Assembly: GCA_905181865.1 (NCBI GenBank)
Contig: CAJIZG010000001.1
Location: 186,001-250,000 of the forward strand
Direction of reading: 5' to 3'
From: Urechidicola croceus
Lineage (GTDB): Bacteria; Bacteroidota; Bacteroidia; Flavobacteriales; Flavobacteriaceae
Length of the DNA: 64,000 bases
The translations under genes were made by a program, and so were the position numbers. The notes below the pieces were generated by a model, which ran no database searches, was not told the DNA's origin, and saw only the letters and a program-made list of their open reading frames with translations. Below are positions 1,582-61,265 of the stretch, one piece after another; positions within the stretch are counted from its first letter, which is position 1; every line of letters starts with the position of its first letter.

Positions 1582-2046
1582 ATGATTAAGCCTGTATTTA
1601 AATTTAATGTGATTCTCTGTTTTCTTATTCTTATAAATTGCTCTGGTAAAAAAGACCTTGTAAACGACAAAACTGAAATTACTTTTGATAAAATAACAAG
1701 CCAATCACATGGTGGGAATCTAGAAGAAAATTTCATATTCGTAAAATCTAATGACGCACTCAAAAAAATATTTGCACAACTTAATATCGCAAGAAAACCA
1801 GGTATCCCTTTGCCTATGATCGATTTCAATAAGGAAAGTGTTATTGTTTTATTTATGGGCCAGCAAAATTCTGGAGGGTATACTATTTTATTAGAATCTG
1901 CAAAATATAATAACACTGGCATTTTACAATTATTCGTAAAGGAAACCAAGCCCAGTGGTATGTCAACTATGGCTATTACGCAACCTTATACCATCTATAA
2001 AATTCACAAACCTCTTGAAAAGGTCAACTTTGTAAAAATAGACTAA
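1582..2046 (+). CDS. lipoprotein with PrcB-like C-terminal domain
   Basis: A 154-residue protein. The start chosen is ATG 1582, which gives a classic lipoprotein signal (MIKPVFKFNVILCFLILINC, lipobox LINC then SGKK). An upstream in-frame ATG at 1468 is rejected because those 38 codons are the out-of-frame translation of the csaA remnant. The C-terminal half (QQNSGGYTILLES, VKETKPSGM, TQPYTIYKI) resembles the PrcB C-terminal domain, named from a Treponema protease-complex subunit; its biochemical role in Bacteroidetes is unknown. Five bases separate its stop from the next gene, so co-transcription with the oxidoreductase is likely. Location is inferred to be membrane-anchored and periplasmic. 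Confidence 0.75.
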   Translation: MIKPVFKFNVILCFLILINCSGKKDLVNDKTEITFDKITSQSHGGNLEENFIFVKSNDALKKIFAQLNIARKPGIPLPMIDFNKESVIVLFMGQQNSGGYTILLESAKYNNTGILQLFVKETKPSGMSTMAITQPYTIYKIHKPLEKVNFVKID

Positions 2047-2051
2047 TATCA

Positions 2052-4952
2052 ATGACACAACCTTTAGAACAACTTAAATTAAATTTATCAGGAGAATTTT
2101 TTTTTGATAAATTACATACATCAATTTACGCTACAGATGCTTCTGTTTACAGAATGACACCAACGGCTGTAGCATATCCAAAATCGGTAGATGATCTTAA
2201 AATATTAATTGCACATGCCAATCAAAATGACACTACGCTAATTCCAAGAACAGCTGGAACTTCATTAGCGGGGCAATGTGTTGGTAATGGTATCGTTGTG
2301 GATGTGTCAAAATACTTCACGAAAATCATCTCTGTTGATAAAGCTTCAAAAACGGTAACTGTTCAACCTGGAGTTATTCGCGATGACTTAAATTTATATT
2401 TAAAACAATTCGGATTATTCTTTGGGCCTAATACTTCAACATCAAATAGATGTATGATTGGAGGAATGGTAGGTAATAATTCATCTGGTACGACTTCTAT
2501 AAAATATGGCGTTACAAGAGAAAAACTAATTAATCTTAAAACAATTTTATCGGATGGGTCGGAAGTTGAATTTTCTTCTATCTCTTCTGAAGCGTTTATT
2601 CGAAAATCCAAATTAAATTCATTGGAAGGGTCTATTTATAAATTCATCCACCAAGAACTTTCCAATACCGCTATTCAGGAAGAAATTAGAAAACAATTTC
2701 CTAAAAAAACGATTCATCGAAGAAATACAGGATACAATATTGACACCTTTTTAAAATCAGAATTATTCGGTGGGAACGAAGAGCAACTCAATCTTTGTGA
2801 ATTACTCTCTGGGAGTGAAGGTACACTCGCTTTCACCACAGAAATAACACTTCAATTAGATGACTTACCACCAAGTCATAGTGTTATGGTCGCTGCACAT
2901 TTTGAAAGTGTTCAAGAGAGCATGGAAGCGGTCGTTATTGCTATGAAACACGATTTATACCTCTGTGAATTGATGGATAAAACCATTCTAGACTGTACTA
3001 AAAGTAATAGAGAACATGTAAAAAATCGCTTTTTTATAGAAGGTGATCCAAAAGCAGTATTAATGTTAGAATTATCTGCAACTACTTTGGAAAATGTACA
3101 ACAACAAGCAAATACTCTTATTGAAGATTTAAAAAATAACAATTACGGATATGCTTTTCCAAAATTGACCGGTATCGAAATTGAAAAAGCCTTCAACTTA
3201 AGAAAAGCTGGATTGGGGCTGCTTGGAAATATCATCGGTGACAACAAAGCGGTTGCGTGTATTGAAGATACTGCGGTACAATTAAATGATCTCCCCCGCT
3301 ATATTTCTGAGTTTTCACAAATGATGAAAGAATTTAAACAAGAAGCGGTTTATTATGCACATGCCGGTGCTGGAGAATTACATCTTCGTCCGATATTAAA
3401 TTTAAAAAAGAAAAAAGATGTTAAACTCTTTAGAAAAATTACTTTAAAAACAGCGCTTTTAGTAAAAAAATATGGAGGTTCTTTTAGCGGAGAACATGGT
3501 GACGGAATTGTTCGAGCAGAATTCATTCCCATTATGATAGGAACTAAAAACTACGAACTTCTTCAAAGACTTAAAAAGACTTTTGACAAAAATAACGTCT
3601 TTAATAAAGGTAAAATTACAGATCCTTTTTTGATGGATACATCGTTACGATATGAAATAGAACGAGCTGAGCCCAATATAGATACTGTCTTTGATTTCTC
3701 TGACTCACAAGGTATATTGCGCGCAACCGAAAAATGTAATGGCTCTGGTGACTGTAGAAAATCAGTAAGTGCTGGCGGTACTATGTGCCCAAGTTACCGA
3801 GGAACCAAAAATGAAAAAGATACAACTCGAGCCCGCGCTAATACCTTGAGAGAATTTTTAACAAATTCTGAAAAATCAAACAAATACAATCATAAAGAAT
3901 TAAAGGAGGTTTTTGATCTTTGTTTAAGTTGTAAAGCCTGTGCTAGTGAATGTCCAAGTAATGTTGATATTGCTGTATTAAAATCTGAATTTCTATACCA
4001 ATATCAAAAAGATAATAAACCAACTTTTAGAGATCGTTTATTTGCTTTCAATGCCAAATACAACCGAATTGGTAGTCGTTTTCCCCATATAACCAATTTT
4101 ATCTTACGTCAACCTATTGCTAAAAAAATCTTAGGAATTTCAATACATAGAACTATTCCACCGTTAAGTAATCAAACTTTTAAAAATTGGATTCAAAAAA
4201 ATAATAGTTCCATTAAAAGTACAAAAAGTACTATTTACCTGTTTTGTGACGAATTTACCAATTATAATGATATCCAAATAGGTATAGACACTTACACACT
4301 CTTAATCAAATTGGGGTATAACGTAAAAACCGTAGCGCACGAAGAAAGTGGAAGAAGTATGGTTTCAAAAGGTTTTTTAGATGAATTTAAGATAATAGCC
4401 AACAAAAATATTGCTATATTTAAAGATATAATAACCTCAGAAACACCCCTTATTGGAATGGAGCCAACTGCCATTCTAACTTTTAAAGATGAGTATCTTC
4501 GGATTGCAGACGACAAAGATTCGGCGAAAAGAATTTCGAATCATTGCTTTACTATTGAAGAGTTTATTCAAAAGGAAGTTAACATAAAGAAAATATCTCA
4601 ATCTCAGTTTACCAATGAACCGAAAAACATTAAAATTCATGGACATTGTCATCAAAAAGCATTGATAGGTATAGAACCCATATTTGCCATGCTTAATTTA
4701 CCGAAAAACTATAACGTATCAATTATAACAGCGGGATGTTGCGGAATGGCTGGTTCTTTTGGGTATGAAAAAGAAAAATATGATCTAAGTATGAAAATAG
4801 GAGAAGATTCTTTATTTCCTAAAATTAGAAATACCAATTTGGAAACAATAATTGCTACATCAGGTATAAGTTGTAAGCATCAAATTTTAGATGGAACAGG
4901 TAGAAAAACTACACATCCATCTACCGTTTTACTTCAAGCCTTAAAAGTATAA
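2052..4952 (+). CDS. FAD-binding and (Fe-S)-binding oxidoreductase, YdiJ/D-2-hydroxyglutarate dehydrogenase type
   Basis: A 966-residue, three-part flavoprotein. Residues about 40-270 form the FAD-binding type 4 domain (PRTAGTSLAGQ, GGMVGNNSSGTTS); about 270-540 the FAD-oxidase C-terminal domain (HAGAGELHLRP, FSGEHGDGIVRAEF near 476). A ferredoxin-like module follows, with cysteines at CNGSGDC...MCPSYR (about 561) and CLSCKACASECPS (about 623). The C-terminus carries a GHCHQKA motif (about 863) and AGCCGMAG (about 893), typical of CCG-type heterodisulfide-reductase-like domains. Length and order match E. coli YdiJ, which oxidises D-2-hydroxyacids (2-hydroxyglutarate or lactate) and passes electrons on through Fe-S clusters. 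Substrate cannot be fixed from sequence. Confidence 0.88.
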   Translation: MTQPLEQLKLNLSGEFFFDKLHTSIYATDASVYRMTPTAVAYPKSVDDLKILIAHANQNDTTLIPRTAGTSLAGQCVGNGIVVDVSKYFTKIISVDKASKTVTVQPGVIRDDLNLYLKQFGLFFGPNTSTSNRCMIGGMVGNNSSGTTSIKYGVTREKLINLKTILSDGSEVEFSSISSEAFIRKSKLNSLEGSIYKFIHQELSNTAIQEEIRKQFPKKTIHRRNTGYNIDTFLKSELFGGNEEQLNLCELLSGSEGTLAFTTEITLQLDDLPPSHSVMVAAHFESVQESMEAVVIAMKHDLYLCELMDKTILDCTKSNREHVKNRFFIEGDPKAVLMLELSATTLENVQQQANTLIEDLKNNNYGYAFPKLTGIEIEKAFNLRKAGLGLLGNIIGDNKAVACIEDTAVQLNDLPRYISEFSQMMKEFKQEAVYYAHAGAGELHLRPILNLKKKKDVKLFRKITLKTALLVKKYGGSFSGEHGDGIVRAEFIPIMIGTKNYELLQRLKKTFDKNNVFNKGKITDPFLMDTSLRYEIERAEPNIDTVFDFSDSQGILRATEKCNGSGDCRKSVSAGGTMCPSYRGTKNEKDTTRARANTLREFLTNSEKSNKYNHKELKEVFDLCLSCKACASECPSNVDIAVLKSEFLYQYQKDNKPTFRDRLFAFNAKYNRIGSRFPHITNFILRQPIAKKILGISIHRTIPPLSNQTFKNWIQKNNSSIKSTKSTIYLFCDEFTNYNDIQIGIDTYTLLIKLGYNVKTVAHEESGRSMVSKGFLDEFKIIANKNIAIFKDIITSETPLIGMEPTAILTFKDEYLRIADDKDSAKRISNHCFTIEEFIQKEVNIKKISQSQFTNEPKNIKIHGHCHQKALIGIEPIFAMLNLPKNYNVSIITAGCCGMAGSFGYEKEKYDLSMKIGEDSLFPKIRNTNLETIIATSGISCKHQILDGTGRKTTHPSTVLLQALKV

Positions 4953-11190: not shown

Positions 11191-11221
11191 TTTGGTTGAG
11201 TGAAAAATAGTAGTATTTTTG
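11191..11221 (+). promoter_or_regulatory. full Bacteroidetes-type promoter in front of the candidate small RNA
   Basis: TTTG (11191-11194), exactly 19 bases, then TATTTTTG (11214-11221): both elements match the TTTG-N19-TAnnTTTG consensus perfectly. No coding sequence follows, only about 200 bases of non-coding DNA ending in a strong terminator. Predicted transcript start near 11228. Confidence 0.7.
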
Positions 11222-11227
11222 AATTTA

Positions 11228-11424
11228 AATGACATAGTTAATGCTAAATACGATACATATTACGGCCGTCATTCTACGCGAATTTCCTTTAGTCAATTGT
11301 ATGCAAAAACAGTATATCTATAAAAGCACTAACTATTTGTTTAAACGACGCTAAACAATACTAATTAACAACTAATTACTAACTAATTAAAAGGTGCTTT
11401 TTTAGAAAAAAGCACCTTTTTTTT
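11228..11424 (+). ncRNA. candidate small noncoding RNA (~197 nt)
   Basis: Defined by a perfect promoter upstream, a strong intrinsic terminator at the end and no open frame between. The RNA can fold: 11234-11245 (ATAGTTAATGCT) pairs with 11325-11336 (AGCACTAACTAT) at 11 of 12 positions, and TTTAAA blocks at 11224 and 11340 could extend this closing stem around an internal loop. Between the stem and the terminator CTAATTA occurs three times with an exact 11-base period (11361, 11372, 11383), giving a single-stranded A/U-rich tail. Size and a long stem with internal loop recall 6S RNA, but I see no diagnostic feature that proves it. No known family is claimed. Confidence 0.5.
11388..11424 (+). 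terminator. strong intrinsic terminator
   Basis: AGGTGCTTTTTT (11392-11403) pairs perfectly with AAAAAAGCACCT (11406-11417) around a two-base loop, followed by a run of eight T (11417-11424). The left side has only four A, so it works rightward. It ends no recognisable protein gene, which supports the small RNA call. Confidence 0.8.
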
Positions 11425-11429
11425 GATTA

Positions 11430-12024
11430 AAATAATTATCAAGGCATTCCCTAGATCTAAAAATTATGAAATCTAATCACACATTTAGTTCGTTCATCCT
11501 ACATGCCATTCTAAAAATCAAAACTCCTTTAATAAACGCAATATCATTGCTGTTAAATCCATAATGACATGAAAAATACGAATACAAAAACTTCTTTCAA
11601 AAATCATTTCATCGTTACTATAAATGATATAAATAATAGTCGAGCGTTATTACCTCTTAACTTTTACAAAAAAATGGAACAATACGCTCAGTCATGAGCC
11701 TTTTCTTTTAAGGAGTATATTATATCAAGACCTATTTTAGTAAAATTGAATCTTTTAAAAAACACCTACTTGAATGATAAATTTCAATTAGATATCCCTA
11801 AAAGAAATTAAATAGTAGCGAACTTCAATTATCGATTGAGGTGCGTAAAATTGATGGAAATTCTATCGAAGTCATTTGTAAAGCACTCTTTAACTCTACT
11901 CTAAACAATAACAAATAAATAATACTTCCTAATTCGTGCTATCGAATAATAATTATTACCAATATATTGTTATCTTTTTATAAATTAGAACTGCAAATTA
12001 AAATTACCCACTTACAAATTACAT
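11430..12024. other. gene-free stretch with a possible decayed coding remnant
   Basis: About 600 bases without an intact gene. One short frame ending at TAA 11916-11918 reads like the C-terminus of a real protein (SIEVRKIDGNSIEV, ICKALFNSTLNN), with a plausible preceding piece (LDIPKRN) in another frame, suggesting a frameshifted gene end. I could not assign a family. The rest is A/T-rich with no repeats or hairpins that stand out. Confidence 0.3.
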
Positions 12025-44777: not shown

Positions 44778-45074
44778 CTAGACCAACATCAATTTTGTAA
44801 TCAACTCCTGCTTTAACTCCTCATTTAACATTTTAATTATTTTTTCTTTCCCGTAACTTAATTCTTCACGCAAAACGGAGGACTTTAATTTTACAATAAG
44901 GGTTTTATTTTGCAATTGAACACTATCGGTATAACTTTGAACGCCTTGTCCCATCAATTTGGACCAAACTTCTGTAACATTCATTTGATCCATCCCTTTT
45001 GTAAGATTGTTTTCTTTAATTACAACCTTCATTAGGTCCTCAATACTAGAATATTCGTTTTCTCTTTTTGCCAT
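44778..45074 (-). CDS. DUF721 (DciA-like) protein
   Basis: A 98-residue protein with the DUF721 core (LMKVVIKENNLTKGMDQM, EVWSKLMGQGVQSY, LQNKTLIVKLKSSVLREEL). DUF721 includes DciA, the loader of replicative helicase DnaB in bacteria that lack DnaC, which is consistent with its position after recF. One-base overlap with recF shows translational coupling. Confidence 0.85.
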   Translation of the reverse strand: MAKRENEYSSIEDLMKVVIKENNLTKGMDQMNVTEVWSKLMGQGVQSYTDSVQLQNKTLIVKLKSSVLREELSYGKEKIIKMLNEELKQELITKLMLV

Positions 45075-61050: not shown

Positions 61051-61123
61051 GACTTGGTAGCTCAGTTGGTAGAGCACCTCCCTTTTAAGGAGGTGGTCCT
61101 GGGTTCGAGCCCCAGCCAAGTCA
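61051..61123 (+). tRNA. tRNA-Lys (anticodon TTT)
   Basis: 73 bases: acceptor GACTTGG pairs with CCAAGTC, D-arm GTAGCTCAGTTGGTAGAGC, anticodon stem CCTCC/GGAGG with loop CTTTTAA (TTT at 61084-61086), T-arm GGGTTCGAGCCC. The CCA end is not encoded. Shares a promoter with tRNA-Leu. Confidence 0.97.
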
Positions 61124-61174
61124 CAAAAAAGGTCTATTTTTCACTTTACTTTTTTTATTTAGAATACTCTTAAA

Positions 61175-61258
61175 GCGCGTATGGCGGAATTGGTAGACGC
61201 GCAAGCTTGAGGGGTTTGTGTCCACTAGGATGTGCTGGTTCGACTCCAGTTACGCGCA
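61175..61258 (+). tRNA. tRNA-Leu (anticodon GAG)
   Basis: 84 bases: acceptor GCGCGTA pairs with TACGCGC, anticodon stem CAAGC/GTTTG with loop TTGAGGG (GAG at 61209-61211), a short variable arm as in class II tRNA-Leu, T-arm CTGGTTCGACTCCAG. CCA not encoded. Follows tRNA-Lys by 51 bases and precedes an intrinsic terminator. Confidence 0.97.
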
Positions 61259-61265
61259 CAAAAAT

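Follow-up and report, generated by a model that had tools for sequence, protein, structure and literature searches.

A candidate leader-peptide transcription attenuator preceding a decayed hot-dog-fold gene in Urechidicola croceus

In a 64,000-nucleotide stretch of the Urechidicola croceus genome (assembly GCA_905181865.1, contig CAJIZG010000001.1, positions 186,001 to 250,000; referred to here, at its full length, as the window), a promoter-like sequence, a body of about 197 bases with a long-range stem and an intrinsic terminator follow one another between positions 11191 and 11424. The original prediction read this arrangement as an independent small RNA, possibly 6S-like, with a noncoding body and no neighbouring rightward gene. 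The question raised by the locus is what such a neatly delimited transcript would be: an RNA acting on its own, the messenger of a small protein, or the leader of an operon. Comparison of the locus with its counterparts in relatives makes a leader-peptide transcription attenuator the probable answer. The elements involved are the following:

11191–11221, forward strand: putative Bacteroidota-type promoter, TTTG (-33), 19 nt, TATTTTTG (-7).
11234–11245, forward strand: segment 1, which forms the 5' side of the long-range stem, the protector, in the minimum-energy fold and overlaps the sORF1 start codon.
11241–11354, forward strand: sORF1, candidate leader peptide of 37 aa (MLNTIHITAVILREFPLVNCMQKQYIYKSTNYLFKRR, then stop), with a homologous ORF in relatives.
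11322–11330, forward strand: segment 2 (AAAAGCACU), the predicted antiterminator 5' strand, within the 3' end of sORF1 and overlapping 11325–11336.
11389–11402, forward strand: segment 3, the terminator 5' arm, of which 11393–11401 is the predicted antiterminator partner of segment 2.
11407–11424, forward strand: segment 4, the terminator 3' arm and T run, from the sequence and the terminator scan.
11466–11564, forward strand: sORF2 (MKSNHTFSSFILHAILKIKTPLINAISLLLNP, then stop), with pN < pS in relatives.
11569 to about 11912, forward strand: decayed hot-dog-fold gene, with an in-frame TGA at 11695–11697, a frame change and further stops.

What lies downstream of the terminator differs from what had been supposed, since both sORF2 and the decayed hot-dog gene follow it in the rightward direction. 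Within the genus, the hot-dog gene is broken in the window genome only: it is uninterrupted in 11 of the 13 congeners and was not found in two incomplete ones (77% and 78% complete), and sORF1 and the hot-dog gene are present in the same 12 of the 14 genus genomes. The small ORF between terminator and gene is also under coding constraint, with pN < pS for sORF2 in all nine groups of relatives tested. Many of its copies end in Pro-stop (PLLLYP-stop, LNP-stop), the median distance from sORF2 to the hot-dog start is 11 nt, and sORF2 may couple or pause translation.

When 60 genomes were searched at the nucleotide level, the best matches beyond the window genome fell on the terminator end and came from congeners and one other genus. 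The layout of the congeners consists of a leftward HAD hydrolase gene, the promoter, sORF1, a hairpin (AAGGTGCTTTT...AAAAGCACCTT), sORF2 and the hot-dog gene, and the part common to relatives is promoter, sORF1, GGTGC hairpin, sORF2 and hot-dog gene. Promoter, stem and terminator, on whose conservation the original prediction had staked its claim, all have counterparts in relatives. In the family, 24 of the 299 genomes searched had a match to a hot-dog profile, two of which (L053 and L054, E 8.5e-4 and 8.6e-4) were dropped, as by sequence they probably belong to another hot-dog family; a broader profile matched 29 of 397 genomes, and a scan of named genomes yielded 27 loci, including Formosa, Mariniflexile, Confluentibacter, Gaetbulibacter, Aestuariibaculum, Marixanthotalea, Mangrovimonas, Subsaxibacter, Kordia and Snuella. 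A terminator-like hairpin upstream of the hot-dog gene was found by script at 62 of 63 loci, that of the window included; the locus that the script missed (L052) carries, by eye, sORF1 and an imperfect hairpin, without sORF2, and L125, where the script misplaced the site (the match lies near the contig start), carries sORF1 and the hairpin when inspected in the same way. Leaving aside 14 identical leaders, L052 and L125, there are 47 distinct leaders from at least ten Flavobacteriaceae genera, which are mutually related and so not independent of each other. Leaders lacking a hot-dog gene were also sought: a strict pattern matched 13 of 299 genomes (eight at known leaders and five elsewhere, in unrelated-looking sequence) and a looser one, in 21 genomes, gave two matches, alike each other and unlike the leader, but such exact patterns also miss the window's own leader and their negatives do not show absence elsewhere.

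The surroundings of the operon vary. In L041 and L042, which belong to one genus, it is located elsewhere, flanked (by eye) by a methylthiotransferase-like gene upstream and an ABC transporter ATPase gene downstream. In L032 and L034, of one other genus, what appears by eye to be a DEAD-box RNA helicase gene (1920–3197 and 1925–3202, respectively) comes after the hot-dog gene, has the same orientation and may share its control.

The intact hot-dog protein of the relatives is about 120 aa long, and AlphaFold2 predicts with confidence that it adopts a hot-dog fold (mean pLDDT 89.4). The closest structures retrieved with Foldseek are acyl-CoA hydrolases (5egk, E 4.1e-7, TMq 0.76), and the sequence libraries gave weak matches and no better. 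The residues mutated in the S. aureus entries 5egj and 5egk are Asn28 and Asp43, which by spacing match N23 and E38 here. Among 19 rows, the position matching Asp43, likewise placed by spacing, holds I in L052 and, in the other 18, E in some clades and Q or K in others; given that this acid position varies, the hot-dog protein may not be an ordinary thioesterase.

The body of the supposed RNA, described as noncoding, holds sORF1, which at 37 aa lay below the 50-aa cut-off of the initial ORF list. This ORF is homologous to a conserved ORF in relatives, with pN/pS values of 0.24–0.75 in six groups (sORF1s of unequal length having been aligned from their 3' ends, both here and in the codon-position comparison). 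Along the body of sORF1, third codon positions are the least identical in six of six groups. In the last 12 codons, this third-position excess is weaker or reversed in all six, slightly so in one (the comparison carries no significance test), as is expected if RNA pairing constrains those codons. The window sORF1 shares 41% identity with that of L004 in alignment A1, where QKQ and one Lys are invariant in 11 rows; it is shorter than the sORF1 of the congeners, and its gaps are in frame. There is an upstream in-frame ATG at 11229, where the sORF1 profile match starts, followed by a TAG at 11235, which the match spans; because ATG 11241 is the counterpart of the start codon mainly used in the congeners, we read this TAG as part of the untranslated leader. 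Across the family, the sORF1 profile matched 45 of 299 genomes at E <= 0.1, with three clear matches (the window, L056 and L058, E 1.7e-12 or better), of which L058 (G015) is the sole one outside the window genus, the others there being at E 2.7e-4 or worse. The peptide is thus too diverged for a single profile, and homology between clades rests on position. Both sORF peptides are basic and contain very few Gly or acidic residues.

Upstream of sORF1, the boxes are located as originally claimed, with TTTG at 11191–11194 and, 19 nt on, TATTTTTG at 11214–11221; we take them to form a promoter of the Bacteroidota type, from which transcription would start near 11226. A box of this type recurs in relatives, as described below, and calling the promoter perfect says less than it seems to, as chance matches are not rare: TTTG-N19-TANNTTTG has two perfect matches in the window, versus 0.99 expected from shuffles, and a single match would, taken alone, be weak evidence for a promoter, the support coming from the relatives. 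The second match lies at 44909–44939 on the forward strand. Among the 47 leaders, the longest sORF1 has a TANNTTTR box no more than 50 nt upstream of its start codon in 42 (45 have one before sORF1 when the box helped to choose the start codons), against a background of 10% of the 50-nt stretches elsewhere. The closeness of the box to sORF1 suggests that the transcript begins near the sORF1 start codon. The same box occurs between the hairpin and sORF2 in 12 of the 47 leaders and between sORF2 and the hot-dog start in eight, and some leaders may, as these matches allow, have an internal promoter downstream of the hairpin.

The textbook terminator of the original prediction is borne out at 11389–11420, with 14 pairs around a 4-nt loop and with a T run, and terminator-like sites number three in the 2.2 kb scanned, versus a mean of 0.6 in shuffles. 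Its 5' arm is complementary to segment 2, at the end of sORF1, the predicted duplex averaging -10.1 kcal/mol in the 47 leaders, and the sequence of segment 2 is AAAAGCACY in most of the window genus and GCATCTT or AAGCATC in most other leaders. When each leader is compared with 300 dinucleotide shuffles of its own, the duplex reaches p <= 0.05 in 34 of 47; the other 13 antiterminators miss this level individually, and those of L005 and L009 are weak. Using 4008 other 45-nt stretches from the same loci as controls (mean -5.4), a duplex at -8.7 kcal/mol or better is formed by 44 of the 47 sORF1 ends versus 6.5% of controls, and when all stretches of a locus are ranked, that from the sORF1 end comes first in just 19 of 47 and lies among the top 5% in 30. 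A GCAY core is located 6–26 nt upstream of the sORF1 stop, in frame 0 in two leaders, frame 1 in 11 and frame 2 in 28, with six leaders having a paired stretch without the core. Since the core occurs in all three frames, it is the RNA itself that appears to be constrained, and the element is not a mere by-product of the peptide ending. Mariniflexile fucanivorans (L092), for example, keeps GCATCTTGA though its local frame differs from that of M. gromovii (L091). Additionally, L041, L042 and L137 have AAGTGC or AGTGC in the terminator arm instead of AAGGTGC, and their segment 2 is GCACUU or GUACUUUU, so that pairing with the altered arm is kept.

Between the sORF1 stop and the hairpin (11355–11388 in the window) runs a spacer with a mean of 3% G and 13.8% C in the 47 leaders, which at this G content should be little structured. 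sORF2 is also G-poor (9.7% G, 21.2% C), and these compositions could bear on structure or on Rho.

A simpler explanation of these data is that sORF1 is a plain small-protein gene followed by its terminator, with the downstream genes expressed through constant partial readthrough or from an internal promoter, and with no switching at all. The coding constraint in both sORFs and the basic charge of their products (mean net charge +5.1 each) would fit such a gene, as would the box-like matches 3' of the hairpin and the fact that the terminator is predicted to be stronger than the antiterminator in 45 of the 47 leaders (mean -14.1 vs -10.4). Yet a simple terminator needs neither an element that is found in three frames nor one that tracks the changes in the terminator arm, and the behaviour of third positions in the last 12 codons of six groups, with the reservation on significance already made, also speaks against it; we regard this explanation as rather unlikely. 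For an attenuator, the greater strength of the terminator implies that switching would need kinetics or the help of the ribosome, i.e. control during RNA synthesis, and attenuators usually act while the RNA is being made.

The third pairing is the long-range stem, which is present as the 5'-most helix of the minimum-energy fold, with 11 of 12 pairs formed between 11234–11245 and 11325–11336, the latter strand containing most of segment 2. The window fold has z = -2.55 (an equally good fold arises in three of 200 shuffles), and the protector pairing (1:2) has p = 0.017 versus shuffles. As p <= 0.05 is reached in just 19 of the 47 leaders, the protector was dropped as a general feature of all leaders; it is clear in some clades outside the window genus, e.g. 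in L043 (identical to Confluentibacter lentus L097), with p 0.003. In nine other congeners, a stem of 6–7 pairs (AAAUGAC/GUCAUUU type) forms between the 5' end and the bases directly 3' of segment 2, and the window forms five of its seven pairs. A search for covariation in relatives had been suggested, and compensatory changes were found in this stem: with the segments placed by hand, because MAFFT misplaced the window 5' end in alignment A5, and in a way that favours the stem, standard pairs occupy 63 of 70 cells in ten sequences, with four further pair types. Alternative pairs occur at three positions (A-U/U-A; U-A/C-G; G-C/A-U/G-U), and row shuffles reach the observed number of pairs in three of 5000 cases and that of further pair types in 120 of 5000. 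Minimum-energy snapshots of the growing window RNA pass from 1:2 at 171 nt to 2:3 at 177–187 nt and then to 1:2 together with 3:4 at 195 nt.

At the level of sequence, the locus has the features of a leader-peptide attenuator in general, namely an ORF before a terminator, an intrinsic terminator between that ORF and a gene, and a predicted antiterminator that is incompatible with the terminator and overlaps the ORF. The layout, the coding constraint, the complementarity, the covariation within the genus and the decay of the gene come directly from the computations, and from them we infer that transcription, translation and switching occur, and in which direction the switch works. In the proposed mechanism, transcription would start just upstream of sORF1 and the RNA could adopt three competing pairings: 1:2, the protector, between the 5' end and the sORF1 end; 2:3, the antiterminator, between the sORF1 end and the terminator 5' arm; and 3:4, the terminator. 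A ribosome translating sORF1 to its stop would cover segment 2, allowing the terminator to form, and only an RNA of about 200 nt would be made. A ribosome held or slowed early in sORF1 would keep segment 1 away and leave segment 2 free to form the antiterminator, in which case transcription would continue through sORF2 and the hot-dog gene. Without translation of sORF1, 1:2 would form and the terminator would be left free.

The codons of sORF1 bear on what the ribosome would respond to. Reading of the 47 peptides revealed no control-codon run common to the leaders, although single cases such as MMM in L007 or TTT in L041 exist, and rare codons (strict cut-off) are not enriched, at 0.3% in sORF1 versus 0.9% in the reference; an attenuator of the trp/his kind, gauging a single amino acid, was rejected on these grounds. 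Relative to 34,008 reference codons, CGC, CGT, TGT, ATG and CAG are enriched 3.7 to 5.1 times in sORF1, and GGA, GGT and GAT occur at 0.02 to 0.15 of the reference level. With this profile, a sensing nascent chain, or a sensor responding to slow elongation in general, is a better fit than a gauge of amino acids, with neither of the two being proved. It is possible, albeit doubtful, that the leaders constitute an undescribed Flavobacteriaceae class of attenuator, in which a conserved basic leader peptide, and not codons for one amino acid, holds the ribosome upon a cellular signal and so controls a catalytically altered hot-dog protein, the window leader having outlived its gene and perhaps becoming a free-standing gene for a small RNA or small protein.

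The resemblance of the window locus to a small-RNA gene has an explanation in the attenuator reading. As the hot-dog gene is broken in this genome, the leader would be orphaned and would yield mainly the short terminated RNA, giving it the look of a free-standing small RNA. An independent, trans-acting small RNA, for instance of the 6S type, would equally have the promoter, stem and terminator that delimit a transcript of about 200 nt, next to a gene that is broken here, and to this extent a discrete, terminated RNA with a meaningful stem is a plausible part of the original prediction. The independence of that RNA is not sustained: its body is a conserved ORF, and in relatives it precedes an operon. 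Neither did the suggested comparison with Rfam bring support, as the only matches in the window at gathering score are two tRNAs, with none at the locus, and a permissive search there gave 13 sub-threshold matches (best E 0.051), none of them to 6S. 6S RNA has a rod-like fold with a large central bubble, and the predicted fold of the window RNA combines a long-range stem with small hairpins that stand apart from it, and is no rod with one central bubble. Independent action in trans is, on this evidence, very unlikely, and the 6S assignment is not borne out. A tRNA-Lys and tRNA-Leu pair lies at 61051–61259 of the window, on the forward strand.

A third alternative combines the two ideas: an attenuator, once orphaned, could have acquired a role in trans in the window species, played either by the RNA that it releases or by the peptide encoded in sORF1. 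A trans role has been reported for the trp leader peptide of Sinorhizobium (PMC7298713), and in the window the promoter, sORF1 (with its gaps in frame), stem and terminator are all intact despite the broken hot-dog gene. Against this stands the fact that the species is represented by one genome only; moreover, the loss of the hot-dog gene may be recent, in which case an intact leader need not mean selection. We consider such an acquired role very unlikely; the window leader could be a relic as well as an element retained for that role, and a single genome does not distinguish the two.

The attenuator reading matters for several reasons. Cis-regulatory RNA of Bacteroidota is thinly characterised, and the leader described here occurs in at least ten named genera, its window copy having no Rfam match. 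It is directly testable in culture-collection strains (Formosa, Kordia, Mariniflexile), and it draws attention to two conserved small ORFs. It is also a warning that a tidy small RNA, made of promoter, stem and terminator, may turn out to be an attenuator that has lost its target gene. We found no report of this leader in the literature searched, which covered main texts, mostly of openly available papers.

The attenuators of the trp and his operons represent the classic leader-peptide mechanism of amino-acid operons. Attenuation is discussed in PMC4833913. Like them, the window leader type has a short leader ORF, an intrinsic terminator, alternative 1:2, 2:3 and 3:4 pairings, and an ORF overlapping the competing strands; it differs in having no shared run of codons for a single amino acid, in preceding a hot-dog gene instead of a biosynthetic operon, in the location of segment 2 inside the ORF end, and in the second conserved sORF after the terminator. 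Elements that sense the stalling of ribosomes by antibiotics are known in toiL-topAI, from an upstream ORF (PMC12121999), and in the vmlR leader (PMC9226507); they share with the window leader a short upstream ORF and an RNA rearrangement expected from the position of the ribosome. For toiL, control of the ribosome-binding site and of Rho-dependent termination is proposed (PMC12121999), whereas the window leader has an intrinsic terminator, and no resistance or toxin-antitoxin gene was recognised at the window locus. Within the phylum, clues for leader-peptide attenuation upstream of amino-acid operons are described in Flavobacterium psychrophilum (PMC9723704), and sORFs are carried by 5' UTRs of Bacteroides thetaiotaomicron (PMC7366714); these papers point to the same proposed mechanism and name other genes, and their supplementary tables may overlap with the present leaders. 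Finally, the hot-dog protein resembles acyl-CoA thioesterases of the 4HBT/YbgC type, such as the S. aureus acyl-CoA hydrolase (5egk), in its predicted fold, and differs from that enzyme in sequence (12% identity) and, if placement by spacing is correct, in the variable residue at the Asp43-equivalent position.
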